64,000 nucleotides of DNA from a virus, in the IMG/VR virus record IMGVR_UViG_3300009181_000043, positions 1-64,000 of that record. One strand, 5' to 3'. Each line of letters opens with the position of its first letter. The first letter of the stretch is position 1. The notes beneath the pieces are model-generated. The model was not told where the DNA came from. It saw nothing but the letters and a program-made list of their open reading frames with translations, and did not search any database. Both the position numbers and the translations under genes were made by a program. Shown piece by piece: positions 4,469 to 49,987 of the stretch.

Positions 4469-6388
4469 ATGTCAATATTGTCAAATAAAGGAAGAGTAAT
4501 CCCAAGTCTCGACAATTATGCAAATCCAGCCAGTGGGGATTTGCTGATTGTGCAAGACATGGCACGTAATAAAACCAAGAACATTACATTCTCTCAGGTA
4601 TCAGAAACTTTAGTAGGGTTGTTGCAAGGTGTCCCCGTAAATTTCACAGACACCGATAATAAATTTACTGGCTCATTCAAAGGTGGATTTGCCAAGTTTG
4701 ATTCTTATTTGACTGCATTGGAAACCGAACCCGGGTTGTTATTTTCTGTAAAAGGTACTGCCTTTTCTGCAACGGGTTTTCAAACAATCACGTTGGGTGG
4801 TACATCAACCATTACTCTGAATTCACCAACCGTTGTGGTTGGGCAGATTTTGAATGTTGGTGGTTTATTAACTGCATCCGGCGGAGTCGCTGGTAATCTC
4901 ACTGGTAATGTATCGGGTAACTTAACTGGCAATGTCGTGGGCAATGTCGTGGGTAATGTCACCGGTGATGTAAAAGGTGACATTTATGATAATGGTGGCA
5001 CTCAAAAAATACTAGACAATCGCACCAACAGAACAGCACTATTCAGAGGTAGCAGTAGTTATGCGAGTCGATCACTATCTTCAAGTCATGCGCGTGTTGC
5101 TGACTTGACCTATACTTGTGTAAGTCATACAACCACTGCGGACTTTGCAACATTGGCACGTAGTGCTAGTTATGCCAGCCAATCAAGATCGTCTTCATAT
5201 TTGCGATACACAGGAATTCCGAATGGTAGTTCAAGCTATGCATTGAGATCCGGTCTTGCTGATGTTGCGACATTCGCGTTGAGTATTGGTAATGCCAAAA
5301 CAGCTTCTTTCTTGGCGTGGGTTCCAGGTCAAGTTAACGGTACAGCAAGTTATGCTAGATCCGCAAGTGTATCACGCAGTTCCAGTTATGCGCTGTCATC
5401 AAGCTATTCATACAGTGGAAGCTATGCCACCAGCGCAAGTTATTTACCGATCACAACCATAAGTAAATTGTTAAACCAAACCCAGGGAGCTATCAATGTA
5501 AGATATCCGTTGGGAAATATTACGTATGGTAACTATCATTATTTTGTAAACTATGGTCGGGATAATGTTGGTCACTTGTTGAGACACAATATATTGACGA
5601 ATCAAGTCGAGATGATTGCATCGGGAGCAAGTAGCGGTCTTATTATTGGTGGTCATATTTCTATACATAACTTCGATTATGGTGCTGGAGCACTGGATCA
5701 CTTGGTTATGACCCAAAATGGGTGGATCTATGTTTTGAAAGAACCGGGGTCTGCAACTCCAGTGATGTTGCCACCAATCAATGTCAGTGGCGACTTTCAC
5801 CAACATCGATGTTTATATGTGAATACTGTTCCAACAACATACGATACGTCGGCCAGTGTCCTACATCCGACTTTTTATGTGGGTGTCAGCAGCAATGCTT
5901 CTGATTGTACAAACATGTATCTCTACAAGATATATTGGACGGGTGCGGCATATACTTATGTGCTAGTCCCCAATAACTGGAGCATGTTTACTACTACAAT
6001 TGCAAATTCAACTACATTTAGAAATATTGTGGGAACAACTCCGTTTAATCTATTGACCCAGATTTACAACCCGATTAAGAAGCGATTGTATTATTCCGAA
6101 AATTCTGTAGGATTGCTTCATATTTTTAATATTTCGGGTTTTGTTGGTGGTGCAAATTTGGGAGAATGGTGGAATCAAGTCAATGCTACTAAACTGCCAC
6201 AATTGACATATGAAAAAACAATTGCAATTTCTATTCCTGGTAGTAATTTTTGGACAAATGCTGAATGGGAGAGTTTTTCTCTGGAATATAATACAACTAC
6301 AGGCGACGAAAAATTCTTATGTTGGAACCGAATTGGATACGACAACGGTACAGGCACAGTTGGTCGAGTTGCTTGGATAGAATCATAA
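4469..6388 (+). CDS. Tail fibre or adhesin with SYA and TGN repeats
   Basis: A 639-residue structural protein. The N-terminus (about 1-60) has a SGDLLIVQDMARNKTKNITF motif also present, diverged, in the next gene, and it may be the attachment domain. Residues about 140-175 are NLTGN/VVGN/VTGD repeats. Residues about 190-325 are Ser/Tyr/Ala-rich repeats (SSYA, SASY). The C-terminal 300 residues are rich in Tyr, Gly, Asn and Thr, with a possible beta-propeller or receptor-binding fold. This mosaic is typical of fibres with repetitive shafts. The family is not certain. It is first of three adjacent adhesin genes. Confidence 0.75.
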   Translation: MSILSNKGRVIPSLDNYANPASGDLLIVQDMARNKTKNITFSQVSETLVGLLQGVPVNFTDTDNKFTGSFKGGFAKFDSYLTALETEPGLLFSVKGTAFSATGFQTITLGGTSTITLNSPTVVVGQILNVGGLLTASGGVAGNLTGNVSGNLTGNVVGNVVGNVTGDVKGDIYDNGGTQKILDNRTNRTALFRGSSSYASRSLSSSHARVADLTYTCVSHTTTADFATLARSASYASQSRSSSYLRYTGIPNGSSSYALRSGLADVATFALSIGNAKTASFLAWVPGQVNGTASYARSASVSRSSSYALSSSYSYSGSYATSASYLPITTISKLLNQTQGAINVRYPLGNITYGNYHYFVNYGRDNVGHLLRHNILTNQVEMIASGASSGLIIGGHISIHNFDYGAGALDHLVMTQNGWIYVLKEPGSATPVMLPPINVSGDFHQHRCLYVNTVPTTYDTSASVLHPTFYVGVSSNASDCTNMYLYKIYWTGAAYTYVLVPNNWSMFTTTIANSTTFRNIVGTTPFNLLTQIYNPIKKRLYYSENSVGLLHIFNISGFVGGANLGEWWNQVNATKLPQLTYEKTIAISIPGSNFWTNAEWESFSLEYNTTTGDEKFLCWNRIGYDNGTGTVGRVAWIES

Positions 6389-6419
6389 ACACACAACCAA
6401 TTTCCACAAATTATAACAT

Positions 6420-7676
6420 ATGGCAAGCCCTTGTAATAGTCTCAATGTTCAAACCGTCAAAGTGAGTCAGCTTAGTAGTATCAGTCGTACTATTAAACCG
6501 AGTGACAGCTTTTTGGTGATTCAGAATGATGCTACCAAAACGTCCCGCAAAGCAACATTTGCAAATCTATTGACATTTTTGTCAACTGTGCCGACGGGAT
6601 CATATTCTGGTAGTTTCAGCGGCAGTGCCCGTGGTCATTTTACTGGTAGTTTTACTGGTAGTTTCAAAGGCTATATGAGTGCGTCGAATGCATTCCACAA
6701 CAAAGTTGCATTTCATGGATCAGCAAGTTGGGCAGCAAATGCAAATCACGCATTGACGGCCGACACTGTAATTGGTTCAACAACAGGAACGGGAACTGTA
6801 AATCAGTTTACATATTGGACGGGACTAAATACATTGGGTTCTACTCCGTATTTGACCATCGATTCCACAAAAAATAACATCAGTCAGACAAATCTGCCGG
6901 GTCGTATAATGGTTAATCGACCATTTGATTTTGGAAGTAGCGCAGCCAGTGAGATGCCGCAAATCATTCAATACTCACAATCATACGAATTGTATGAAGT
7001 TGGTCTACAGGCAGCCAACAACTACATTCGCACTGGTAAAAACTTTGCAATCTTTTACTCTGGTTCTTATAGCGTTGGTGCCACTGATGGTGGTAAAGAA
7101 GCAATTTGGAGTCCAGATAAATCCGTAAATGTTGGAAAAAGTGGTTGGACAGTTGTGGGTGTGAGACAACGTTTGTTTGGTATTGGTCATTTTCCAAAAT
7201 CGAGTCAAGTGAATGCGCAGTGTCATGTGCATTTGAGTAGTTCATTTGGTTGGCCAGGAGGTTATGATCCAAACGCCAATGTTTGGTTAGTTACATCTGG
7301 TAGTAGTTTCACTAAGTTGGCGAGACTGAGTGGAGCCGGGCAATTGGACGTTAAGGGTGATATCGTTGCATATTCAACGTTTGCATCATCCGACGCACGT
7401 CTTAAAAATGATATTCAACCAATCGAAGATGGTTATGATAAATTGAGTAATTTGAACCCAGTTTCGTTTACTTGGGAGTCAAATGAGCGTCCAGATTTTG
7501 GTTTGATCGCACAGGAAGTTGAAGAACTGTATCCAGAGTTTGTCAAAGAAGACATGAATGGATACAAAGCGGTCAAATACAATTCTTTCATACCATTGTT
7601 GATCAAAACTGTACAAGAACAACAAGAACAAATTTTTGATTTATTGAAACGTATTGAATCATTGGAATCTGAATAA
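6420..7676 (+). CDS. Tail fibre with S74 intramolecular chaperone
   Basis: A 418-residue protein. The N-terminus has the IKPSDSFLVIQNDATKTSRKATF motif shared with the preceding fibre. Residues about 60-85 are SGSFSGS-type repeats. The middle is a putative receptor-binding part. From residue about 322 comes a Peptidase_S74 chaperone: SSDARLKNDIQPI, the DFGLIAQEVEELYPE segment and a C-terminal coiled coil (QEQQEQIFDLLKRIESLE). In this family the chaperone trimerises the fibre and then cuts itself off just before the Ser-Asp of the first motif. The free-standing end suggests a short trimeric fibre or tailspike. Confidence 0.88.
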   Translation: MASPCNSLNVQTVKVSQLSSISRTIKPSDSFLVIQNDATKTSRKATFANLLTFLSTVPTGSYSGSFSGSARGHFTGSFTGSFKGYMSASNAFHNKVAFHGSASWAANANHALTADTVIGSTTGTGTVNQFTYWTGLNTLGSTPYLTIDSTKNNISQTNLPGRIMVNRPFDFGSSAASEMPQIIQYSQSYELYEVGLQAANNYIRTGKNFAIFYSGSYSVGATDGGKEAIWSPDKSVNVGKSGWTVVGVRQRLFGIGHFPKSSQVNAQCHVHLSSSFGWPGGYDPNANVWLVTSGSSFTKLARLSGAGQLDVKGDIVAYSTFASSDARLKNDIQPIEDGYDKLSNLNPVSFTWESNERPDFGLIAQEVEELYPEFVKEDMNGYKAVKYNSFIPLLIKTVQEQQEQIFDLLKRIESLESE

Positions 7677-7679
7677 GGT

Positions 7680-9572
7680 ATGTCCAACGTTAATCGACTC
7701 AATAGAAGTGGACCATTGTCATTTTCAGAATTGACATTGGGATCTCCATATAGTTCCATCAGTGATTTATTGAGCAATATAGAAAGTGTACCCACACAAA
7801 ACGTATCTGTCTCAGCGTCGTTGTCGTTGCTGCGATCATGGACCGGTGATCCAACGGATAACACCAAAACATTATATGGTGTTGGCACTGGTCTTGTTAG
7901 TTACGATAGTGTTGTGGATGCCAAGCTGAGTGAATTCTACGGTGCAAATTATTTGAGCGCATCTATCAAACCAAATGGTAGTGGGCGTTGGGACGTTAAA
8001 ATCTGGCCAGATAGTGTAGTATACAATTCCAATTATTTAACACAAGAAACGTCGAGTCGAGTGTATCGGTACAGTGTGTATTCAAAACCACTCACAGGAA
8101 CATCGTTTGTAAAACAGTCTGCGTATGTAAAATCAAATGTGGCGGAACAGTCTGTTGTGAATTTAACATCGGACCGAATCTATAAAGTTGTATTGAAGGA
8201 TGTTGTTTCAAACGCTTTCACCTCTAGTTTTTTCACGGGTTCGTGTGGAGTTCCAGCGGGTAGTGTTGGTAGTAATGTGTATTTAGATTCTGGAACTACA
8301 ACGACTATCGCTGCCGCCAGAGATGCGATTATTGCTGGAATTTCTAAATCTGGTTTGGATTCAAATCGCCAATCCGATGTTATTCAAATCGCAAAAATTT
8401 TGGCAAATTTTGTTGACCAACCGAATACATTATCACTCACTGGATATGTTCGCAATGCAACATCAACAACTAGTTGGCCGGCCGGTGGCACCCGCAGCTT
8501 TGATTTTGAGGGATTTATTAGTAGAATAGTGCAAGGTGGAAATTACTATGCTGGGCTAGTAACTTGTAGTGGTGGAAATTCTTTTGTTGGAAACCCTGCG
8601 ACAACTTATCAATACGGTATAGATCAAGTGTATACGACATCTGGTCAATCTAGTATGGTCATATTTGCGTTGGCACCAGTGTCTTCGATTTCTGGCTGTT
8701 CGGCTTTACCAACCGACGCAATTTCAAACATAGTTGTGACCCAAAATTGTTTTTCACCAGCACAAACAATTAATCCATTAGTTACTACAGCAGATGTCAA
8801 TTTTACTGGTAGTGCAATATTTGTGAATCCAAGCACCAATGCACATTCAGCAACATATACACTAAATGCTGATTGGATCAATACCGTAAATAATAAATCT
8901 TTGTACGATGGCAATCAACAGTTGTTACCAGCATTTTCACCAAGTACGTTTACTTTATCTGTGGGTCAAAGTAAAAAAGTGACCTATGCGTTTGGTAAAA
9001 ATTATTGGCACAATGCCATTCAAAGTTCAAGCTTTTCAACGAGAGGATCTTTCACCGCAGTATTTAGTGGTGGAGCCACACTGGTTGGGTATATAACATC
9101 CACAATGGATAAAAATGTTTGTATGGGTAGTGGTGGTCAAGGTGGTGGCGGAGGATGTCCTGCTGCGTGGCAATTGATGGAAACAAAAGAAAGAGGGTTT
9201 ATTCCAGCAAGAGAAATTGTTGTGGGTATGCACTTGCGTGATCCACAAATTGGTGTTTGGAATAGAGTAAATGTGGCATATGTTAGTCGTGCTCCAATTT
9301 ACAGAACCATTATTGATGGTGTTGCGTTTGATGTTGATAATAGCCATAAATGGCCTGTTGGTAACGACACTTGGAAGCAAGTGGTTGACATCAAACCGGG
9401 TGATACTCTTGAAGGTGTTAATAACAAGACGTTATTTGTCAACGATAATTATTTATTGCTTAAGGATGCTGAGTACATGCATTTGAATTGTGATAATCAC
9501 AGATTTGTTATGGGATCGGATGTTATTGGTCATAATGGAAGCGCATCTTGGTTGGTGACCAAAAAATTCTGA
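7680..9572 (+). CDS. Adhesin-like protein with C-terminal Hint domain
   Basis: A 630-residue protein. About 480 residues of Ser/Thr/Val-rich, beta-structured sequence are followed by a glycine linker (GGQGGGGG) and then a Hint (hedgehog/intein) domain at about 493-619. C493 is the first nucleophile. The NSHKWPV segment resembles intein block B, VVDIKPGDTL carries the usual Gly-Asp, and NHRFVMGSDVIGHN ends in the terminal His-Asn. Eleven residues follow. No homing nuclease insert is present. Like bacterial intein-like (BIL) domains, it could cleave itself at C493. Three nucleotides separate it from the preceding fibre, so they form one operon. Confidence 0.75.
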   Translation: MSNVNRLNRSGPLSFSELTLGSPYSSISDLLSNIESVPTQNVSVSASLSLLRSWTGDPTDNTKTLYGVGTGLVSYDSVVDAKLSEFYGANYLSASIKPNGSGRWDVKIWPDSVVYNSNYLTQETSSRVYRYSVYSKPLTGTSFVKQSAYVKSNVAEQSVVNLTSDRIYKVVLKDVVSNAFTSSFFTGSCGVPAGSVGSNVYLDSGTTTTIAAARDAIIAGISKSGLDSNRQSDVIQIAKILANFVDQPNTLSLTGYVRNATSTTSWPAGGTRSFDFEGFISRIVQGGNYYAGLVTCSGGNSFVGNPATTYQYGIDQVYTTSGQSSMVIFALAPVSSISGCSALPTDAISNIVVTQNCFSPAQTINPLVTTADVNFTGSAIFVNPSTNAHSATYTLNADWINTVNNKSLYDGNQQLLPAFSPSTFTLSVGQSKKVTYAFGKNYWHNAIQSSSFSTRGSFTAVFSGGATLVGYITSTMDKNVCMGSGGQGGGGGCPAAWQLMETKERGFIPAREIVVGMHLRDPQIGVWNRVNVAYVSRAPIYRTIIDGVAFDVDNSHKWPVGNDTWKQVVDIKPGDTLEGVNNKTLFVNDNYLLLKDAEYMHLNCDNHRFVMGSDVIGHNGSASWLVTKKF

Positions 9573-9604
9573 GTTATTTTGTCCAAGAAGAAGCGTTCTT
9601 GTTG

Positions 9605-9614
9605 ATATTTATAT
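9605..9614 (+). promoter_or_regulatory. Putative late promoter octamer (ATATTTATAT)
   Basis: TATTTATA at 9606-9613 ends 3 nt before the ATG at 9617. Confidence 0.4.
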
Positions 9615-9616
9615 TT

Positions 9617-10726
9617 ATGATTAAATTCAAACATCTAGTGATTTTCACATCCATGCTGATTGCGGGCTGTGCTGCATTTTTTAGTGTATACGGTATTGGT
9701 CTTTTGTTTTCTGGAGCTATTGTTGCCGCAATGATAATGGCCAGTGCATTGGAACTTGGCAAGCTAGTAACAACATCGTGGTTATTTCGCTATTGGAACA
9801 TTGCCAATAGATTGATGAAAGTTTACATGGTAACTGCGGTTATTGTGTTGATGTGCATTACATCTCTGGGTATTTTTGGATATTTAACCGCAGCATTTCA
9901 AAAGAGTTCGTTGGAAACTGAATTGAGCATGACCAAGATTGTTGCCTTGGAAACTCAAAAGACACAAGAGTTTAAGAAAGTTGACAATGTTAGAATTACT
10001 ATTGACAAACTATTGAGTTTGCGTAGTTCACAAGAATCTAGATTGAGTCAAACCCTTACCAACGCAATCATCGCTCGCAATCCGATTCAGATGCAAAATA
10101 TTCAGAATCAGATCAATGATCAAATTTCTGATCTAAATAAACAGATCGATGCGGAAAATACCAAGTTGAAGGATGCTGGTGATAAGTCTACCAAGATAGA
10201 CGATGAAATTTTCAAACTCAAAATTGACAACAGTCAAAAGAAAGATATTACCACATTCAAATTTGTTGCGGATGAGTTTAATACCGATATTCGCCACGTT
10301 GTTAAGTGGTTTATTGTTGTGTTGATCACGGTTTTTGATCCATTGGCTGTGGTGTTGTTGTTGGCATACAATATGAGTTCCAATACACGCCAAAATAGCG
10401 AGCAAGATTTTCAAATGTATGGTGAAGAAAAAGTAGCTGCACCAGCACCAGTTGAACCAGCACCAGTTGAACATGAAAATATCAGAGAGGTTGAGAAAAT
10501 CGTTGAAGTTGAAAAGCCAGTAGACAGAGTTGTTGATCGTGTTGTTGAAGTGGAAAAGCCTGTGGATCGTGTTGTTGATCGTGTTGTTGATCGTGTTGTT
10601 GAAGTGGAAAAGCCTGTGGATAGAATTGTTGATAGGATCGTTGAAGTGGACAGACCCATAGTAGAAACCATCGTAAAAAAAATTAAAAACAAAACTCAAG
10701 GCGGCCGGGGATTGTTTAGTTTCTAA
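9617..10726 (+). CDS. Membrane protein with coiled coil and VDRVV repeats
   Basis: A 369-residue protein. Three N-terminal hydrophobic segments (about residues 5-25, 28-50 and 75-100) precede a long coiled coil rich in Lys, Asp, Gln and Leu (about 105-210). A fourth transmembrane segment follows (WFIVVLITVFDPLAVVLLLAYNM, about 235-257). The cytoplasmic-like tail has APVEPAPVE and many copies of VEKPVDRVVDRVV. A longer frame reaches back to 9548 inside the previous gene, but ATG 9617 sits 3 nt after the TATTTATA octamer and opens with a basic membrane-anchor sequence. Function unknown. It may be an inner-membrane lysis, exclusion or signalling protein. Confidence 0.7.
   Translation: MIKFKHLVIFTSMLIAGCAAFFSVYGIGLLFSGAIVAAMIMASALELGKLVTTSWLFRYWNIANRLMKVYMVTAVIVLMCITSLGIFGYLTAAFQKSSLETELSMTKIVALETQKTQEFKKVDNVRITIDKLLSLRSSQESRLSQTLTNAIIARNPIQMQNIQNQINDQISDLNKQIDAENTKLKDAGDKSTKIDDEIFKLKIDNSQKKDITTFKFVADEFNTDIRHVVKWFIVVLITVFDPLAVVLLLAYNMSSNTRQNSEQDFQMYGEEKVAAPAPVEPAPVEHENIREVEKIVEVEKPVDRVVDRVVEVEKPVDRVVDRVVDRVVEVEKPVDRIVDRIVEVDRPIVETIVKKIKNKTQGGRGLFSF
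10510..10660 (+). repeat. Tandem repeats encoding VEKPVDRVVDRVV
   Basis: Units of GTTGTTGATCGT and GTTGAAGTGGAAAAGCCTGTGGAT recur in frame within the membrane-protein tail. Exact copies at the DNA level imply recent expansion or recombination. Confidence 0.75.
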
Positions 10727-39551: not shown

Positions 39552-40064
39552 ATGGTTATACTAGGGTTAGATTCGTCCACATCAGTAACAGGTTGGGCAT
39601 TTAGAGAGGATAAAAAGATCCTCTCTGCTGGTTTTGTTGACACCAAAAAATTCGATACAACCAAGGAAAAGACGCAACACGTTATTTCCGTTTTACAAAA
39701 AGATCCAAACATGAAGAATGTGGATCATGTTAACTTGGAGGCAGCACTCAGTGGGTTTGCCGGTGGATTTACGTCACAACAGGTCATTATAACACTAGCA
39801 CGACACAATGCGGTGTTTGCCTACATAATGGAAGAACACTTAAAGAAGAAGGTAAATCTTTTGAGTGTGACCACAATGCGTAAGCATCTGTTTGGTAAGT
39901 GTCGTATCAAGGGCATCAAACCCAAGGAATTTGTAAAACAACAGTTGGAGTCGTTGATGCCAGATGTAATACAGTTCGCCGTATTGAATAAAAAAAACAA
40001 GTGGGACGAGCGGAATAGTGATATGTACGATGCTGTGGTATGCGCCATGTACGACGCAAATTAA
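39552..40064 (+). CDS. RuvC-like Holliday junction nuclease
   Basis: A 170-residue protein with an RNase H-like fold. D7 sits in GLDSSTSVTGWA, E63 in NLEAALSGF, and C-terminal acidic residues lie in NSDMYDAVVCAMYDAN. These match the RuvC catalytic set. It probably resolves branched DNA before packaging, a job done by the unrelated endonuclease VII (gp49) in T4. It heads a recombination/replication island with primase and the Mre11/Rad50 fusion. Confidence 0.85.
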   Translation: MVILGLDSSTSVTGWAFREDKKILSAGFVDTKKFDTTKEKTQHVISVLQKDPNMKNVDHVNLEAALSGFAGGFTSQQVIITLARHNAVFAYIMEEHLKKKVNLLSVTTMRKHLFGKCRIKGIKPKEFVKQQLESLMPDVIQFAVLNKKNKWDERNSDMYDAVVCAMYDAN

Positions 40065-40096: not shown

Positions 40097-40107
40097 ACTG
40101 TAGACGT

Positions 40108-41028
40108 ATGGTTGAAACATCGGTACTAGATATACTTACAAAGTTGTTTAAGCATCGCCCACATATTCAGAAGGGCGGTGAAGAACTCATGTTTTTCTGT
40201 CCAAGTTGCAACCACTACAAGCGTAAACTAAATATTAATACCAATAGTGGTTATTATCACTGTTGGGTGTGTAATTTTAGTGGCAAAAGTTACAAGAGCT
40301 TGTTGAGCAAGATCAAGGCACCATCAGAATTCTACGAAGTTCTGTGCAAAATCAAGGTGTCCAAGACTCAAAACCATAACGAAGTCAAAAAGTTGTTTTT
40401 GCCTTATGAATTCAAGCCGTTGTATAAACCATCACCCGAAGTAGCGTATAAACACGCTGTGTCGTATTGTGTGAGTCGTGGACTCACGGTGTATGACATG
40501 ATTAGATACAACATCGGGTATTGTACTGAGGGGCAGTTCCAGAACCGCATTGTGGTACCATCGTATAATGCCACAGGCGAATTGAATTTTTATTGTGGTC
40601 GTGACTATTACAATAGTAAAATAAAGTATCGGCTGTGTGAGTCAACAAAAGACATTGTTGGGTTTGAGATGCTGACAGATTTTACCAAACCTATCACGTT
40701 GGTAGAGGGTGTATTTGATGCATTTTCAGTAAAGTATAATGCTGTACCATTGTTTGGGAAAACACTCAGCAGCAAACTTAAAATAAAGTTGATGACCCAA
40801 AAACCTCCCCGAGTTAATGTGTTGTTGGATAATGATGCCATCAAAAGTAGTCTTGAGATATGCACCTTTCTGATTCAGAATCAGATTGATGCGTACTTAG
40901 TTTTATTGGACGGTAAAGATCCCAATGAAATTGGACATACAAAGACATGGCAAAACATTGATGCTAGTGTTAAGATGGATGAAACAACGTTGTTTAAGAT
41001 GAAAATGAAACTGAAGCACAATCTATGA
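40108..41028 (+). CDS. DNA primase (zinc finger plus TOPRIM)
   Basis: A 306-residue protein. The N-terminus has a CHC2/DnaG-like zinc ribbon (CPSCNHYKRKLNIN...CWVC), followed by a linker and a TOPRIM-like core. In this core ITLVEGVFDAFSV carries the conserved Glu, VLLDNDA carries the Asp motif, and LLDGKDPNEIG is the last acidic segment. It would synthesise primers, as gp61 does in T4 with gp41. ATG 40108 is chosen because the upstream frame overlaps the RuvC gene and has no domain content. The stop overlaps the next ATG (ATGA). Confidence 0.87.
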   Translation: MVETSVLDILTKLFKHRPHIQKGGEELMFFCPSCNHYKRKLNINTNSGYYHCWVCNFSGKSYKSLLSKIKAPSEFYEVLCKIKVSKTQNHNEVKKLFLPYEFKPLYKPSPEVAYKHAVSYCVSRGLTVYDMIRYNIGYCTEGQFQNRIVVPSYNATGELNFYCGRDYYNSKIKYRLCESTKDIVGFEMLTDFTKPITLVEGVFDAFSVKYNAVPLFGKTLSSKLKIKLMTQKPPRVNVLLDNDAIKSSLEICTFLIQNQIDAYLVLLDGKDPNEIGHTKTWQNIDASVKMDETTLFKMKMKLKHNL

Positions 41029-44000
41029 TAGTTCTAAAAAATACAGATACGAAATTTGACTTTGCGGTTCAAGTCTCGGATATTCATATCAGACTCACCA
41101 AACGCCATGACGAATATACAAGTGTATTTGATAGATTCTATGGTTTCTTGGACAAGCTTGGTAAAAATGCCAGTGCTATTTGTGTTGTGACCGGAGATGT
41201 GTTTCACAATAAAAGCGATCTAAGTCCAGAGTGTGTTCATATTGGTATTGATTTTCTCAAAAATTGTGCCAACAGAATGCCCACGATTTTGATCGCAGGT
41301 AATCATGATGCTACGTTGGCAAACAAAAGTAGATTGGATTGTTTGACGCCAATCGTTCAAGGACTGAATCATCCAAATCTATATTATCTCAAGTCCAGCG
41401 ACGTTTTCCGCTACGAAAATATTCTTTTCAACCATTTTAGTGTATTTGATGAACCAGATAAATACATCAAGTATGACAGCATTCCGCCCAAATATCGACA
41501 CGAAACTGAACACCACGTTGCGTTGTTTCATGGTCCAGTTAACAACGCAGTAACCGACGTAGGATATACTGTTAGTAATCGTGCCATCACCAACGAATTG
41601 TTTGATGGTCATCAGATTGTGATGTTGGGCGATATTCACAAGCATCAAATTTTGCAAGAATATGATGATGCAAACGGCAAACCCGTAGTTGTATATGCCG
41701 GTAGCATGATTCAACAGAATCATGGCGAAGACCTCAAGGGGCATGGGTTTTTGTTGTGGGATTTGAAGCGTAAGATGTTCAAGCATTATGAACTAGCCAA
41801 CGATTATGGCTTCTACACGGTAGAAATCAATAAGGGAAAGTTACTTACTGACATCAAGGATCTGCCTAAAAAGGCACGTATTCGCACCAAGTGTTTTGAA
41901 TCTATTCCGTCGCAGGTCAAAGATGTGATGGCTGAACTCAAGCAAAAGTGTGAAATACTTGAATCCACATTTATTCGCGTGGATGAATTCGATACCAACA
42001 ACAGCAAAGTTACACATCTCCTTGATATCCATAATATTTTCAACGTAGATTATCAGAATAAGTTGATTGAGGATAGTCTGACTGGCAAGAAAGTTGATGC
42101 CGCCTTGATTGAAAAAGTCAAGATACTCAACAAAACCATCAATACCCAAATCCCAAAGGATAAAACCCCCAAGAACATTCGTTGGAAACCCAAGACTTTT
42201 GAGTTTGACAACATGTTTAGTTACGGTGAAGGCAATTTTATTGATTTTACTCAACTACGGGGAACTATTGGTTTGTTTGCTCCAAATGCCAGCGGTAAGA
42301 GTAGCATCATGGATGCATTGGCATTTTGTGTCTTTGATAAATTCAGCAAAGGCTACAAAGCGGGACATGTGTTAAATACACAAAAAATGACTTTCAAGTG
42401 TAAATTTAACTTTGAGGTTAGTGGTGTTGATTACTTTATTGAACGTGAGGGTAAAGCTGATAAAAAGGGTAACGTAAAGGTTGAAGTTAAATTCTATAAG
42501 CTTGAAAATGGAAATGAAGTTCCATTGAACGGAGAAGCTCGTAGAAGTACCAATGATATCATTCGTGATTATGTGGGTACATACGACGATTTTATTCTTA
42601 CCGTATTGAGTATTCAAAACAGCAAGACAGGTTCATTTGTGGATCTTGGACAAACCGAGCGTAAGGATTTGTTGTGCCAATTTATGGGTCTCAATGTATT
42701 TGATCAATTGTATAATATTGCCAATGAGAACTTCAAGGAAACCAATACTCTGTTGAAGAGTGTCAGCAAGGATCAGCTAGACGCAGATCTTGTTAATATA
42801 TCTGGTAGTATTGATATTAACCAATCAAACATCACATCTTTTAATTCTGAGTTGACAGTACTGGAACAAACGAAGGATGAGCACAACAACAATCTTTTGC
42901 AACTGAGCAAGAATATTGTTAAGCTAGATTCGGTTAAGTATGTTGATATCGTCGGATTGGAAAAAAACAAGATTGACTATGAAGAAAAAGTTGGTAAGTT
43001 TCAATCGGACATCGTTGACAACAAGACCAAAATGGAGTCAATTGAATTGCAACTTTCACAGTTGAGTTCTTCTTTGAAATTGTGTGAGAACATTGAGACC
43101 ACCTATCAAGAATATAAGGATGTCAAGAAACTTGAGGAAAGCAAACAGCATCAGATTGACAGACTAAAGGTTGTCATAAAGAGCAAGGTTGATAAGCTCA
43201 AGAAACTTGAGGAACACAAGTATGACCCTAACTGCGAATACTGTATCAATAACGTGTTCGTAAAAGATGCTATTGCTACAAAACAAGATCTCGAAAATGA
43301 AAAGATCAATGCCGCCATTATCATAGGCGAATACAACACATTAAAAGCCAAGGTCGAGGCGTTTGGCGATATAGAAACCACATATCAGACCTGTCAGAGT
43401 GGGAATAATGAGAAAATTAAATTGGAAAAACGTCGGGAGATTATAAACACATCAATACTCCGAGATGAAAATTATTTGATAACATTACAAAACACGTTGA
43501 AAGCCACAGTTGATGCAATTGATAATTTCTATAAAAATAAGGATACTATTGAGAACAACCAAATGTTGTTGAATCAGATTGACGAACACAAGGCTATTAT
43601 CAAGGATATTGAATCTGAAATTAAGTCTGTGAATTCAAAATTGTTCACGGCGTCAACCGAAAAGGGTAAGTTGGAACTTCAATACAAGAATACTACCGAG
43701 CAATTGAATAAGGTCAAAGAGTTGGAGGTATCATACGAAGCATACAAACTATATACTGCTGTTATTAGCCGTGACGGTATTCCATATGAAGTTATCACCA
43801 AAACTTTGCCGGAAATTGAAAAAGAGGTCAACAATATTTTGAGCCAAATCGTTGAATTCACAGTAACTCTTACAACCGATGGCAAAAACATCATGAGCAA
43901 CATTGTTTATGATGATAAGCGTTGGCCGTTGGAGATGGCTAGTGGAATGGAAAAGTTTGTGAGCGGGTTGGCTATTCGTGTAGCATTGATCAACATTAGT

Positions 44001-44213
44001 AATCTACCAAGACCCAATATTATTTGCATTGACGAGGGATGGGGGACGTTAGATCAATCAAACATAGCATCTGTTGGTAACTTATTTACATATCTAAAAC
44101 ATCAATTTGATTTCATTTGGATCATTTCACATTTAGATTCTATAAAAGACTCAGTTGACGTTTTGCTAGAGATTACGAAGGAGAATGGTTTCTCTAAAAT
44201 TGTTTATAAATGA
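41025..44213 (+). CDS. 46/47: Fused SbcD-SbcC / gp47-gp46 nuclease-ATPase
   Basis: A 1062-residue single polypeptide. Residues 1-~370 are Mre11/SbcD-like: QVSDIHI (D19, H21), VTGDVFH, AGNHDA, LFHGPV and MLGDIHKHQ. Residues ~390-1062 are Rad50/SbcC-like: Walker A APNASGKSS near 420, a zinc hook CEYC (C737, C740) inside a long coiled coil, the signature ASGMEKFVSGLAIRVA, and IICIDEGWGTLD near 1000. In T4 these are two proteins (gp47 and gp46). The complex degrades and processes DNA ends for recombination and replication. No stop or frameshift separates the halves. Confidence 0.93.
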   Translation: MIVLKNTDTKFDFAVQVSDIHIRLTKRHDEYTSVFDRFYGFLDKLGKNASAICVVTGDVFHNKSDLSPECVHIGIDFLKNCANRMPTILIAGNHDATLANKSRLDCLTPIVQGLNHPNLYYLKSSDVFRYENILFNHFSVFDEPDKYIKYDSIPPKYRHETEHHVALFHGPVNNAVTDVGYTVSNRAITNELFDGHQIVMLGDIHKHQILQEYDDANGKPVVVYAGSMIQQNHGEDLKGHGFLLWDLKRKMFKHYELANDYGFYTVEINKGKLLTDIKDLPKKARIRTKCFESIPSQVKDVMAELKQKCEILESTFIRVDEFDTNNSKVTHLLDIHNIFNVDYQNKLIEDSLTGKKVDAALIEKVKILNKTINTQIPKDKTPKNIRWKPKTFEFDNMFSYGEGNFIDFTQLRGTIGLFAPNASGKSSIMDALAFCVFDKFSKGYKAGHVLNTQKMTFKCKFNFEVSGVDYFIEREGKADKKGNVKVEVKFYKLENGNEVPLNGEARRSTNDIIRDYVGTYDDFILTVLSIQNSKTGSFVDLGQTERKDLLCQFMGLNVFDQLYNIANENFKETNTLLKSVSKDQLDADLVNISGSIDINQSNITSFNSELTVLEQTKDEHNNNLLQLSKNIVKLDSVKYVDIVGLEKNKIDYEEKVGKFQSDIVDNKTKMESIELQLSQLSSSLKLCENIETTYQEYKDVKKLEESKQHQIDRLKVVIKSKVDKLKKLEEHKYDPNCEYCINNVFVKDAIATKQDLENEKINAAIIIGEYNTLKAKVEAFGDIETTYQTCQSGNNEKIKLEKRREIINTSILRDENYLITLQNTLKATVDAIDNFYKNKDTIENNQMLLNQIDEHKAIIKDIESEIKSVNSKLFTASTEKGKLELQYKNTTEQLNKVKELEVSYEAYKLYTAVISRDGIPYEVITKTLPEIEKEVNNILSQIVEFTVTLTTDGKNIMSNIVYDDKRWPLEMASGMEKFVSGLAIRVALINISNLPRPNIICIDEGWGTLDQSNIASVGNLFTYLKHQFDFIWIISHLDSIKDSVDVLLEITKENGFSKIVYK

Positions 44214-44381: not shown

Positions 44382-47300
44382 ATGCCAATACAAGAAGGTG
44401 GACGTTGGAGTCCAGAACAATCAATAGTATCTCCCGGCGTTTTTACCCGAGAGATTGATCAATCGGGCCTCGCCCAAGGCGTGGCCAACATCGGTGGTGC
44501 TATCGTGGCACCATTTGCAGACGGTCCTGCATTTTTTCCAAGAATCGTCACCGACGTTGCAACATTAGAACAGGTGTTCGGTGTTGCTGACGGCGTTTAT
44601 TACGGACCATACACCACCAAGGAATACTTGATTCAACAAGGCGTCGTAACAGTCGTTCGTGTTGGTGGTTTGACTGGTTATTGGCAAAAGAATCCGCTGG
44701 TGGTTTATGCACAACCCGGCGCTTGGGCACGCAGCAGCGATATTGGTGCATTGACAACAGCATCGTTCATGTATTTGAACAGTGACAACTATACTGCAAA
44801 TATTCAATACGTTCACTCAAGTTCAGCATGGGTAATCCCTGCCGCTGGTACATCCGGTATTCCTACAGGCCCTGAGTCTGGTATCAGCGCAAGTATTAGT
44901 TTGACTACCAAGGCACAAGTAGTAAGTTTCCTTGGATCTTACTCATATTTGGCAAATATCAATAATTTGTCAGCATCGTTGTCAACAGCATTGACTGCAA
45001 GAAAATTGGTAAGTATTACTACCCTTAATGCATATGCCGCATTTAGCGCATCGGTTGTGGCAGGTAGCGGCAAGGTCGCCAAAAATGGTGGATCTTCTGA
45101 TTATGCTCTGGCTGCGTTCGACGTGGAAAAATTCATTCCAAAAGGTGGTTTCTATGTGTCGGGGTCTGGTTTAGCTCAAGAAACTCGATCATTGAATTCA
45201 ACACTCAATGGTGTGTGTACTGGTAACAATGCCGTTCGTAGTTGGCCCGCTAACTCTGGTTCGTATTTGACAGCATCAATCACAGTTTCGGATGGTCAAG
45301 TAACTTGGCCATTTGTGTTTATTCTGTCAGCATATCCATCGGTCGCAAACACCACGGGATATACTTTCAATAAACTAGCAGGATCTATTAAGAATCTATT
45401 TGCGCCGGTAGTTGCGTATGATAATTCGTTTGTAAAGTTTAGTGGTAGCATCAGTGCTCGCTTTGGTGCTGCTGCACTGACCAGCAATTATCCAGCAAAT
45501 TATGCTGGTACTGGGTATTTGAGTGGTAGCCAACTATACGGTGGCAAGCAATTGAGTCTGGGAACTGTTGGTACTACCAATCGATTGGTTAGAAAATTCA
45601 CAGCCCAAGGGCCTGGAAACACCAACTACAGTGGGTTTTTCTATATGTCATCAAGTGCTCAAGGTCAAAACACCGATGAAGCAACTCAAATTGCAACAGC
45701 AATCAACGAAAGCTCTGAAACTGTGTTTCGGTTGAGTTCTTCTAAGTTGAATATGGGTAGCACCACATCAGACATTACTTTGGCATATGACAAAGACACA
45801 TTTGATGCAACCAGCACACTGATTGTTCACAGCGCAAGTTTCGCAAGTGTACGTAGTGCCGCTACTTGCGGCGCAGCACTTCGCTTCTTGGGTATTGTAT
45901 CAGGTGCATACGGTCCATACGATGGTACATTCGTAGCCGATGCTAATGGAAGCGCAGATCCATGTAATCCTGCTGGTGACGGTCGTAAGAACATGGTGTT
46001 GGGTGTGTTGGCTAATACCCAAAATGCTTCAACTCAATTCGACAACAACTATGCGGTATATGGATTTGTGGACTCAACCGTGGCTCAATTGACAAGCTCT
46101 GTATATCCTTACAAGGGCAACATCAATCCTACCGAAAACCAATATCAATTGGCTTTGCGTTACAACTTCACCGATCCGGATGGTAACACCACAGATGGTA
46201 CATATGGTTACTATGGTTTCAGCTTGAATGAGTCTGACAACAACTACATCAAGGATGTGTTTGGTGCCGATCCTACGGTTGGTAATCCATCAAAGCAAAT
46301 CGCTGGACAGAAGGTAGAAGCAGCATACACCTACGTTTTGTTTGAAGACAGCATTCAACGTTTCTTGGCAGAAAAGACTCGTTCAACAGCTGAGGGTGGT
46401 GGTTGGAAATTGCAAGTGGCAACCGCGCCTTCGTCTGGATTCAGCGTTGGTGAATCTATGAAATTCGTAGATCAATATTCATACGATCCAAACAGTGGTG
46501 ATTCACAATTCGCAATCAGCAATGCATCAACACCTTGGATCTACAGTCAACAAATTGCTCCATTCAAGGGTAGTTCAGATGCATCTGCACACCCAGTCAA
46601 GTTCAAGTTGTTTAAGGTTCATACCTTGAGCGATGGTACATTGAGTAACCAAAAGTACAAGATCGAAATCAGCAACGTCAAGTTGGCTGGTACAGTTCCA
46701 GGTAGCAACTATGGTACGTTTACACTCGCAGTTCGCTCATATAGCGATACTGATAAGCGTCCTAAGTATTTGGAAATCTACCAAAACTTGAACCTTGACC
46801 CAGACAGCGCAAACTTCGTGGCTCGCCGCATCGGTGACCGTTACGCATATATTACCTTCTCAGGTAAGATTGTGGAATACGGAACTTATGTAAACTTGAG
46901 CCGTAACATTCGTATTGAAATGACAGACACTGCTTACCCAGAGAGTATCGTTCCTTACGGATTTGAATCATATAGTAGCCCAGTCGATAGTACGTTGAGT
47001 ACCTTCTTGCCAGCAGTTCGCTACAGCAAGGCTTCTATCTACGGTCTTGGACCCGGTAAGTATCCATCGGGTACTGTGTTTGGTGAAGTTCCAGAGGCAA
47101 GTGAAGAAATTGCATATCTGTATCCTACCGCATCGTTTGGTGTTGGTGTAGATATTGATACCAAGCAATGGTTCAAGCCGCTGCCATACTACGGTGGTAA
47201 TGATCAAAACGGTGACAACATCGACTTTGATCTTGAAGCCAAGGTTTGGGGAACTGAAAACGCTCACTATTATGCTCAAGGTGTGGCCGCAAGCACGGGT

Positions 47301-48374
47301 TCACTCCTAGATCCCGCATTGAGTGGTAGTATTCCAAGCACCTACGATCCAGTAAACGAATCAACCTACGTCAGACTGCGTAAGTTCGTAGTTGGTTTCC
47401 AAGGTGGTTTCGATGGTCAATGGCCTGCAATTCCAATCAATGTTGGAAGCGACATCACCGCCGGTAACACTCAAGGTCTTGATTGTACCTCAATCAAGAG
47501 CCCTGGTAGTATCGGATACAAGCAATGTATTGCTGCTCTGAGTAACTCTGACGAGTGGGATATTAACTTGATTGCTCTACCAGGCATCTTCTGTGAACAA
47601 CACAGCTATGTTACTAACTTGACAATTGACATGTGTACACAACGTGGTGATTGTTTCTACATCATGGATAACGTGGTGTTCCCAGCAAGTAACCAAAGCG
47701 TTGGATTGATTGATGCTGCTATCAACAGCGTCGCAACAATCGACAGCAACTATGTTGCTACTTACTATCCTTGGATCAAGATTCTTGATACCAACTTGAA
47801 CAAGGTAATCAGTGTACCTCCATCAGTGGTGTTACCTTCAATCTATGCAGCAAACGACAATTCTGCTGCTGAATGGTATGCTCCAGCAGGTTTGAACCGT
47901 GGTGGTATTCCACAAGCAGTTCAAGTACTTGATCGTTTGACTCATCAAGAGCGTGATCAATTGTATGAAGGTCGTGTTAACCCAATCGCAGCATTCCCAG
48001 GACAAGGCATTGTAGTTTGGGGTCAAAAGACTCTACAAATTGCTCCAAGTGCATTGGATCGTGTGAATGTTCGCCGCTTGTTGATCAACTTGAAGAAGTT
48101 TATCGCAAGCTCAAGCAACTACTTGGTGTTTGAACAAAACGTTGCAGCAACACGCAATCGCTTCTTGGCAATTGTTAACCCATACTTGGAGAGTGTACAA
48201 CAACGTAACGGTATCTATGCTTATCAAGTTAAGATGGATGCAGCTAACAACACTCCAGACTTGATCGATAGAAATATTCTATACGGTCAGATCTATATTC
48301 AACCAACTCGTACAGCAGAATTCATTATGTTGGACTTCAACATCATGCCGACTGGTGCGACTTTCTCAGCTTAA
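44382..48374 (+). CDS. 18: Tail sheath protein (gp18-like, very large)
   Basis: A 1330-residue protein, about twice the 659 residues of T4 gp18. The N-terminus SPGVFTREIDQSG and APFADGPAFFPRIV, and the C-terminus DRLTHQERDQLYEGRVNPIAAFPGQGIVVWGQKTLQ...RVNVRRLLINLKKFI, are hallmarks of contractile sheaths. The middle (roughly residues 130-900) is Ser/Thr/Gly-rich and contains extra domains absent from gp18, probably exposed on the tail surface. It is preceded by a promoter and a Shine-Dalgarno site and followed by a strong terminator. A separate tube gene (gp19) is not seen after it. Confidence 0.92.
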   Translation: MPIQEGGRWSPEQSIVSPGVFTREIDQSGLAQGVANIGGAIVAPFADGPAFFPRIVTDVATLEQVFGVADGVYYGPYTTKEYLIQQGVVTVVRVGGLTGYWQKNPLVVYAQPGAWARSSDIGALTTASFMYLNSDNYTANIQYVHSSSAWVIPAAGTSGIPTGPESGISASISLTTKAQVVSFLGSYSYLANINNLSASLSTALTARKLVSITTLNAYAAFSASVVAGSGKVAKNGGSSDYALAAFDVEKFIPKGGFYVSGSGLAQETRSLNSTLNGVCTGNNAVRSWPANSGSYLTASITVSDGQVTWPFVFILSAYPSVANTTGYTFNKLAGSIKNLFAPVVAYDNSFVKFSGSISARFGAAALTSNYPANYAGTGYLSGSQLYGGKQLSLGTVGTTNRLVRKFTAQGPGNTNYSGFFYMSSSAQGQNTDEATQIATAINESSETVFRLSSSKLNMGSTTSDITLAYDKDTFDATSTLIVHSASFASVRSAATCGAALRFLGIVSGAYGPYDGTFVADANGSADPCNPAGDGRKNMVLGVLANTQNASTQFDNNYAVYGFVDSTVAQLTSSVYPYKGNINPTENQYQLALRYNFTDPDGNTTDGTYGYYGFSLNESDNNYIKDVFGADPTVGNPSKQIAGQKVEAAYTYVLFEDSIQRFLAEKTRSTAEGGGWKLQVATAPSSGFSVGESMKFVDQYSYDPNSGDSQFAISNASTPWIYSQQIAPFKGSSDASAHPVKFKLFKVHTLSDGTLSNQKYKIEISNVKLAGTVPGSNYGTFTLAVRSYSDTDKRPKYLEIYQNLNLDPDSANFVARRIGDRYAYITFSGKIVEYGTYVNLSRNIRIEMTDTAYPESIVPYGFESYSSPVDSTLSTFLPAVRYSKASIYGLGPGKYPSGTVFGEVPEASEEIAYLYPTASFGVGVDIDTKQWFKPLPYYGGNDQNGDNIDFDLEAKVWGTENAHYYAQGVAASTGSLLDPALSGSIPSTYDPVNESTYVRLRKFVVGFQGGFDGQWPAIPINVGSDITAGNTQGLDCTSIKSPGSIGYKQCIAALSNSDEWDINLIALPGIFCEQHSYVTNLTIDMCTQRGDCFYIMDNVVFPASNQSVGLIDAAINSVATIDSNYVATYYPWIKILDTNLNKVISVPPSVVLPSIYAANDNSAAEWYAPAGLNRGGIPQAVQVLDRLTHQERDQLYEGRVNPIAAFPGQGIVVWGQKTLQIAPSALDRVNVRRLLINLKKFIASSSNYLVFEQNVAATRNRFLAIVNPYLESVQQRNGIYAYQVKMDAANNTPDLIDRNILYGQIYIQPTRTAEFIMLDFNIMPTGATFSA

Positions 48375-48426: not shown

Positions 48427-48481
48427 TTTATATTTTTGAAGTGTATGTTAATATGTATCTATTAGATAAGGAGTATTGTAT

Positions 48482-49987
48482 ATGACTGAACGAGGTAAAA
48501 AAATAAGAGACGCATTTTTCAAAAAGTATGGTGTTTATCATCCATCTCAACTGCCTGAAGTTAAAGCTAAAATAAAGCAAAAACGAGAAAGTGGTGCGTA
48601 TGACAACATGGTGAAAAAGATGAAGGACACTCTCAAAGAAAAATATGGAGATGAAAACTATAACAATGTAGAGAAGGGAAAACGCACCAAATTGGCGAAG
48701 TATGGGGATGAAAACTATAATAACCGAGATAAAATGACGCGGACCAACAATCAGAAATATGGAATGAATGTTTCGCCCAACACTCTTAAAAGAACTCAAG
48801 AACGTGCATCCAATGGAGATATTGGCTTCAAATCTGATCAATTTAAGCAGTATCTCAAAGATAATAATATAGAGAATGTGTCTCAATTGACGGACGTTAA
48901 AGAAAAAAAGAGACAAGAGATGATCAATCGTATGGTTACAAACATTTTTGAGGGTGGTCGCCTTAATAAGATTGTATTACCGATTTTTCAACGAGACGAA
49001 TATACAGGATGTGATTATGATAAGATGTATAAGTTTAAGTGTTGTAAATGCAACAATGAATTTCAAGATAATTTATACTCGGGAAATATTCCACGGTGTT
49101 TGAATTGTTATCCTCACAATAGGTTTAAGTCATCAATAGAAACTGAGATCTTGGATTTCTTACAGTCACATAACATAGAAACAAAACACCATAATAGATC
49201 TATATTAAATGGAGACGAAATTGATATATACGTACCATCCCTTAATTTTGCAATTGAATGTGATGGTGTTTATTGGCACAGTGAAATTGCTGGCGGCAAG
49301 AACAAACAGTATCATCTTAGCAAAACATTGAGGTGTAATCAACAAAATATTCAATTGATGCATATATGGGATTGGGAATGGCGTTGTAAAAATTCTATAA
49401 TTAAAAGTATTTTGCTTAATAAGATGGGTAAGTCTACAAAAATTTATGCACGAAAATGTGTTGTTAAAGAAGTATCAAATGAAGATAAATCAAATTTTTT
49501 GGAAGACAATCATATACAGGGAGACGATACGTCATCAATACGATTGGGGTTATATCATAACAACGCATTGGTTTCTATAATGACATTTGTCAAATCCAGA
49601 TACGATAAAAAATATCAATACGAACTGTCTAGATATTGCAATTTATTGAACACAAATATCGTGGGAGGATCGTCTAAACTATTTACACATTTTATTAAAA
49701 ATTATGATGCAAATTCAGTTGTGACTTACAGCGATAAACGTTTATTTACAGGAAAAGTTTATGCGGGGTTGGGTATGCGGGTGTTGAAAGATACTCCGTG
49801 TGGTTATCATTATTTTCATAAAAATAACGGCGTTCCAATAAACAGAACTCATTTTCAAAAACACAAGCTTGATAAAACCTTGGAAAAATTTGATTGTGAT
49901 TTGAGCGAGTGGCAGAATATGCAAATAAATGGTTATGATCGTATCTGGGACTGTGGTCACTTCAAGTACGAATGGCTGAGAATGTAA
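48482..49987 (+). CDS. Free-standing Vsr-fold homing endonuclease
   Basis: A 501-residue protein. The N-terminal 120 residues carry repeated KYG-containing units (KYGVYHPSQLPEVKAK; KYGDENYNN twice), a common DNA-reading module in phage homing nucleases. A cysteine pair region (CCKC...CLNC) follows. Residues 244-266 (EIDIYVPSLNFAIECDGVYWH) show the Vsr/EDxHD nuclease motif of the I-Bth0305I type. The C-terminus is a basic recognition-like region. It has a clear Shine-Dalgarno AAGGAG at 48468-48473. AT-rich by eye and flanked by twin terminators, it was probably inserted between two structural genes. Confidence 0.85.
   Translation: MTERGKKIRDAFFKKYGVYHPSQLPEVKAKIKQKRESGAYDNMVKKMKDTLKEKYGDENYNNVEKGKRTKLAKYGDENYNNRDKMTRTNNQKYGMNVSPNTLKRTQERASNGDIGFKSDQFKQYLKDNNIENVSQLTDVKEKKRQEMINRMVTNIFEGGRLNKIVLPIFQRDEYTGCDYDKMYKFKCCKCNNEFQDNLYSGNIPRCLNCYPHNRFKSSIETEILDFLQSHNIETKHHNRSILNGDEIDIYVPSLNFAIECDGVYWHSEIAGGKNKQYHLSKTLRCNQQNIQLMHIWDWEWRCKNSIIKSILLNKMGKSTKIYARKCVVKEVSNEDKSNFLEDNHIQGDDTSSIRLGLYHNNALVSIMTFVKSRYDKKYQYELSRYCNLLNTNIVGGSSKLFTHFIKNYDANSVVTYSDKRLFTGKVYAGLGMRVLKDTPCGYHYFHKNNGVPINRTHFQKHKLDKTLEKFDCDLSEWQNMQINGYDRIWDCGHFKYEWLRM

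Follow-up and report, generated by a model that had tools for sequence, protein, structure and literature searches.

T4-type phages encode Mre11 (SbcD) and Rad50 (SbcC) as separate chains, and most named phages have two genes for them, often adjacent; in T4, gp46 and gp47 generate 3' ends in recombination-dependent replication (PMC3175470). Fusions of the two proteins are also known, in Mimivirus R555, Bacillus phage 0305phi8-36, bacterial plasmids and eukaryotes (Yoshida, Claverie and Ogata 2011, PMC3175470). The same study included few full-length phage forms, found aquatic viral metagenomes to be rich in R555-like genes, some adjoining phage primases, and noted that R555 has His for the third Asp of DxH...GDxxD and Asp for the first His of GHxH (PMC3175470). 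Phage core genes also occur in pieces: in Aeh1 nrdA, T4 gene 60 and Aeromonas phage gene 43 the break is due to, or lies close to, a homing endonuclease, and NrdA and gp43 retain activity in split form (PMC2988022). Split inteins with related endonucleases have likewise been described in phage genes (Dassa 2009, as cited in PMC10448857). Here we describe an Mre11-Rad50 (sbcDC) fusion gene in a 64,000-nucleotide stretch of viral DNA (positions 1 to 64,000 of IMG/VR record IMGVR_UViG_3300009181_000043; hereafter the window), together with relatives in which the gene is divided again beside its nuclease active site.

One reading frame for Mre11 and Rad50

The gene is an uninterrupted, ATG-started open reading frame (ORF) of 1062 codons at 41025-44213 on the plus strand, the strand of all window features given below, and contains no internal stop. 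Pfam finds Metallophos at residues 15-206 (E 6e-8) and SMC_N/AAA_23 starting at residue 395, and PHROGs finds SbcD-like phrog_100 at 14-321 (2e-19) and SbcC-like phrog_77 at 247-1061 (3e-46). Together with NCBIfam and PDB sequence searches, these place an SbcD/Mre11 phosphoesterase ahead of an SbcC/Rad50 ATPase, confirming an earlier sequence-only reading that had placed both proteins in this single frame. An AlphaFold2 (AF2) model (predicted local distance difference test score 82; 15-sequence alignment) contains the phosphoesterase, capping strands, two helix-loop-helix (HLH)-like helices at 341-373, the Rad50 N-lobe, coiled-coil arms that meet at C737/C740, and the C-lobe. In Foldseek searches the model matches solved PDB structures of Mre11-Rad50 and SbcCD; in the viral library, DNA-repair proteins of Mimiviridae type rank first (Tupanvirus, 26% identity, E 3e-75; Harvfovirus; Catovirus), and R555 is absent among the top 50 matches listed.

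Aligning 17 diverse fusions shows the motifs of both enzymes to be invariant or nearly so. The phosphoesterase domain (residues 1-265, 41025-41819, from the Metallophos match and AF2 secondary structure) carries nuclease motif I, DIH (invariant D19 and H21; 41079-41087), motif II, GDVFH, a GDxxH variant (G57 and D58 invariant, H61 nearly so; 41193-41207), motif III, GNHD (92-95; 41298-41309), the invariant His169 (41529-41531) and motif V, GDIH (202-205; 41628-41639). The capping domain, with its HLH-like helices and the linker into Rad50, occupies 41820-42179. The Rad50 N-lobe (42180-42692) follows, with Walker A (419-APNASGKSS-427, 42279-42305, its lysine conserved) and the Q-loop (Q531, 42615-42617). 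Between the two lobes, helices of the AF2 model form arm 1 (residues 557-729, 42693-43211) and arm 2 (residues 744-914, 43254-43766) of a coiled coil, separated by the zinc hook CEYC (C737 invariant, C740 nearly so; 43233-43244). The C-lobe (43767-44210) contains the signature S973-G-M-E976 (43941-43952), Walker B (D1003-E1004; 44019-44036), the D-loop (D1010) and the H-loop (H1036), so that the chain holds the full set of Rad50/SbcC elements. Separately, the window reads DEGWGTLDQSNIASVGNLF at 44019-44150, the Walker B/D-loop region, where near relatives read DEGFGCADSDHLGQMGALF, and this C-terminal segment may be recombined.

The sequence-only reading listed nuclease and ATPase motifs, and two of these need correction: GDIHKH is not the canonical GHxH, since Asp203 stands in place of a metal-ligand His, and the signature reads SGME, not SGGE. 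Every nuclease ligand position is occupied in the window protein, though in the variant forms GDxxH and GDIH. Both R555-like substitutions, GDxxH and GDIH, are shared by the window fusion family; at motif V, GDxH is read in 222 of 229 fused rows and in 28/28 split rows (described below), compared with GHxH in the separate Mre11 proteins of T4, S-SRM01, EcMJ and Goe3. GDxxH by itself does not mark the family, as EcMJ and Goe3 carry it too. The window gene and R555 are further alike in domain order, with Mre11 N-terminal and both domains in one frame, in being viral and in the phage-primase neighbours of metagenomic R555 homologues; R555 differs in its 1351 residues, its longer coiled coil and its eukaryotic virus. 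The window gene is, as judged by this architecture and these motifs, which match those of R555, a fusion of the R555 type. T4 gp47/gp46 and SbcD/SbcC share with it the two domains, the ligand positions save motif V and a phage replication and recombination gene set, but they are two chains with GHxH and lie on the other side of the tree.

Asp in place of a canonical His ligand, seen in nearly all family members and in R555, also raises the alternative of a structural DNA tether instead of a nuclease, with Asp203 abolishing or altering catalysis. We consider this quite unlikely: the remaining ligands are all conserved, Asp is able to ligate metal, and motif V of D12 from the T5-like phage PG07 reads GDLH too.

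Overall, we assign a probability of about 0.88 to the reading that this gene is a phage Mre11-Rad50 (SbcD-SbcC) fusion of the R555 kind, from a T4-like myovirus, that resects DNA ends for recombination-dependent replication. One chain would comprise an Mn-dependent phosphoesterase, capping and HLH-like segments, a short linker, a Rad50 ATP-binding cassette head and a zinc-hook coiled coil. Two such chains would dimerise, most likely via the ATPase heads and probably also via the Mre11 domains, into an M2R2 equivalent in which the linker would add a covalent tie to the contact between the Mre11 HLH and the Rad50 coil. ATP-gated end resection would then provide 3' tails for the phage's own RecA, and the tails would serve recombination-dependent replication and repair, as with T4 gp46/gp47. 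Weighing against this reading are the AF2 model, which is of a single chain with a predicted template modelling score of 0.45 and leaves dimer geometry outside its reach; motif V, since GDIH in place of GHxH could mean a different metal use or activity; a literature search that found no biochemistry of this fusion family; and the virus record, a linear one of 99 kb that may be incomplete.

The canonical Mre11-Rad50 complex is already 1:1 (M2R2). The earlier idea that a single chain fixes the stoichiometry consequently holds in that the usual ratio is enforced, but the ratio is not changed. In T. maritima ~28 Å separate the C terminus of Mre11 from the Rad50 N terminus, so a fusion can keep the normal complex geometry (PMC3175470). 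No support was found for the companion idea of altered DNA-end access.

Fused relatives among environmental phages

A metagenomic contig that unites two genes so often adjacent in named phages could reflect a sequencing or assembly error, a lost stop or a frameshift joining neighbours such as T4 47/46. This explanation is refuted, and we give it practically no weight. In the first viral scan, 77 of 80 relatives had a single uninterrupted frame, and among the 270 loci classified over all scans 228 were fused in one frame, 28 were split and 14 were cut by a contig end or unclassifiable; the proportion 28/270 is not a population frequency, one scan having used a split query. The 228 further fused contigs come from many metagenomes and are 23-83% identical to the window protein; the figure counts contigs, redundancy included, and clustering at 80% identity left 136 representatives, five separate-gene phages among them. 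Fused relatives include Microcystis phage Mel-JY01, which has a named host, and a 735-kb uncultured phage record. The fusion is common among environmental phages and was described in 2011 (PMC3175470), and the novelty proposed for it in the sequence-only reading falls away, while the separate Mre11 and Rad50 chains that it gave for T4 do hold for T4-type phages.

Comparison of the window with four close relatives revealed substitutions that are overwhelmingly synonymous on either side of the junction and across it, with ratios of nonsynonymous to synonymous change (pN/pS) of about 0.07-0.38 through Mre11, linker and Rad50. This points strongly to purifying selection in every region of the fusion, the linker included. 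These data bear on the further possibility that the fusion is cut after synthesis, or that an internal start yields a separate Rad50, with two working proteins as the outcome. Proteolysis is compatible with the sequence, and split relatives tolerate two chains, though with a different boundary. Set against this, a scan of the window linker region found no start codon with a well-placed Shine-Dalgarno for a separate Rad50, and the linker region is conserved; we regard two products as very unlikely. Besides the fusion gene, the virus record holds no second Metallophos or AAA_23 match.

In a quick tree of the fused and split rows with five separate-gene phages as comparators, the fused and split forms fall together, apart from the T4-type ones, and placement is unsure for two long branches only, L084 and the T5-like PG07; support was by Shimodaira-Hasegawa-like approximate likelihood ratio test (SH-aLRT) only, and long branches limit inference on the origin of the fusion. 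Covalent linkage is compatible with function across deep phage divergence, and the fusion offers a minimal Mre11-Rad50 machine as a single gene, useful for structure and mechanism.

Individual loci show further features. L042, a 303-kb phage contig, has at 6001-10161 a gene with a 326-residue in-frame intein right after the nuclease GNHD (GNHD|CYSEDHE...ISICGN|CMLSN; Pfam Intein_splicing, E 1.5e-7). L039 has a lone in-frame TAG (8821-8823) at an aligned Gln codon; read-through or an alternative code was rejected, one codon being too little, and the TAG is probably a point mutation or an error. Bacterial carriers were set aside, the candidates being 8 contigs of metagenome-assembled genomes, mostly short or partial matches. 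L185-L189 carry the fused gene or parts of it in bins labelled Nitrosopelagicus, Methylococcaceae, Deltaproteobacteria and others, and are probably phage contigs in bins. L190 and L191 encode a phosphoesterase of ~280-300 residues, and inspection by eye of the stretch examined revealed no recognisable Rad50 ORF.

Relatives divided again after nuclease motif V

In 28 complete loci the gene lies in two frames, and the break always falls just after GDIHKxQ, beside the nuclease active site (L068, L083, L104 and 25 from the L104 scan). Re-split genes were noted at L204:2291-6448, L104:3313-6547, L068:6001-9353 and L083:2935-7160 and in L213, L206, L203, L207, L193-L220, L228 and L229. A search with the split L083 N-fragment returned no matches. 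The corresponding site in the window, a surface loop 3' of GDIHKHQ at 41649-41681, is intact. The split boundary differs from the ancestral boundary between Mre11 and Rad50, and the recurrence of such splits suggests that an unbroken chain is tolerated without being a requirement.

An endonuclease ORF is still present in the gap at three loci: L204 and L213 have a 300-residue Vsr-like homing endonuclease between the halves (phrog_3339, E 4e-17), and L083 has a different ORF, TnsA/PD-(D/E)XK-like. L206 retains the two ends of the L204 ORF with the interior deleted, and L203 and L207 retain shorter remnants. At many other split loci the frames abut or overlap by 4 to 14 bases, with ATGA, GTGA and TTGA stop/start overlaps of a form typical of translational coupling, and in L204 the downstream chain begins within the final endonuclease codons, which its start codon and first residues overlap. 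The loci form a decay series, from full endonuclease through remnants to overlapping frames. On the tree the split state is nested inside the fused clade and needs 8 changes, as expected for repeated hits or for an element moving by homing. Both split chains have pN/pS values of 0.06-0.44, which indicates purifying selection and, on this measure, functional genes.

At its C-terminal end the upstream chain has a conserved tail (consensus RxVExxIDExDLxKYPGAEVxE), and the downstream chain opens with a new basic segment, e.g. MGKKIKIKVKKP. The tails are negative in 28/28 cases (mean -6) and the extensions positive in 28/28 (mean +5), with the extensions of L210 and L216 poorly delimited by the script; ancestry and co-conversion limit how far the 28 cases count as independent. 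Of 109 further ORFs at these loci, only 1% have such acidic ends and 7% such basic starts. With E and K alternating along them, the two segments may pair as beta strands that close the loop opened by the break, and the acidic tail and basic start probably zip the two chains together. Reassembly into an active enzyme is a prediction from this charge complementarity. In an AF2 model of a lone split N-chain, with its partner absent, the tail is a short helix only.

The halves might instead be rejoined, by a group I/II intron or a split intein, or the break might be a sequencing error, so that the product would still be one chain. The known phage split inteins with related endonucleases lend this some plausibility. 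Their endonuclease family is reportedly Vsr-like, and L204 has a Vsr-like endonuclease between gene halves. An intron was rejected, there being no Rfam match in L068 or L083, the two insert-bearing loci tested (nor in L042 or L039), and no space in the overlapping frames. A split intein was rejected as well, since the halves of L199 have no intein match and tail plus extension add ~40 residues in all, too short for an intein and devoid of an intein domain. On these grounds splicing of the split products is unlikely. With the same break in 28 complete loci and a conserved tail in most, we judge a single rejoined product distinctly improbable.

The most far-reaching reading, which we hold with moderate confidence, is that the fusion is a homing hot spot: endonucleases would repeatedly invade the codons after motif V and leave a catalytic-core chain and a cap-plus-Rad50 chain, and the break would outlast the endonuclease through translational coupling and acidic-tail/basic-strand pairing, making the nuclease domain two-chain. 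As in Aeh1 nrdA/mobE, T4 gene 60/mobA and Aeromonas phage gene 43, an endonuclease interrupts a core gene where function is critical, and two chains are expected to reassemble. Unlike in those cases, the target is a fused Mre11-Rad50 gene, many lineages are hit at one site, and a charged tail and extension outlast the endonuclease. While the fusion itself has been known since 2011, its re-splitting by homing endonucleases is unreported in the searchable literature, which does not mention Mre11/Rad50 as a gene-in-pieces target, weak evidence given that subscription papers lay outside the search. Of most interest here is this recurrent re-splitting, a variation on the gene-in-pieces theme, rather than the window fusion, which is of a known type. 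With one enzyme existing in fused, invaded, decaying and stably split states, the relatives provide a natural experiment, and the permanent re-division of an enzyme beside its active site by a selfish element becomes a directly testable question.

Genomic setting of the window gene

The window lies within a 99,122-base virus record. Directly upstream of the fusion are a RuvC-like Holliday junction resolvase (39552-40064; phrog_827, phrog_159) and a DNA primase (40105-41028; phrog_47, E 2e-38) whose stop overlaps the fusion start (ATGA); this RuvC-primase-fusion order is kept in L068 (about 72% identity) and L104 (27%). The same record encodes a RecA-family recombinase (92106-92918 of that record; E 1.5e-54) and T4-like portal, major head and baseplate wedge proteins. 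By analogy with T4, the setting of the fusion is one of recombination-dependent replication genes.

Elsewhere in the window, ARAGORN identified a phage-encoded transfer-messenger RNA at 757-1144 with the tag AEENVVSYDFSYENVGAVAA. Downstream of the fusion, a 1330-residue ORF (44382-48374) looks by eye like a tail sheath protein, and directly 3' of it lies a 503-residue Vsr/MTES_1575-like putative homing endonuclease (48476-49987), which weakly shares a DUF7487 segment with the endonuclease of L204.

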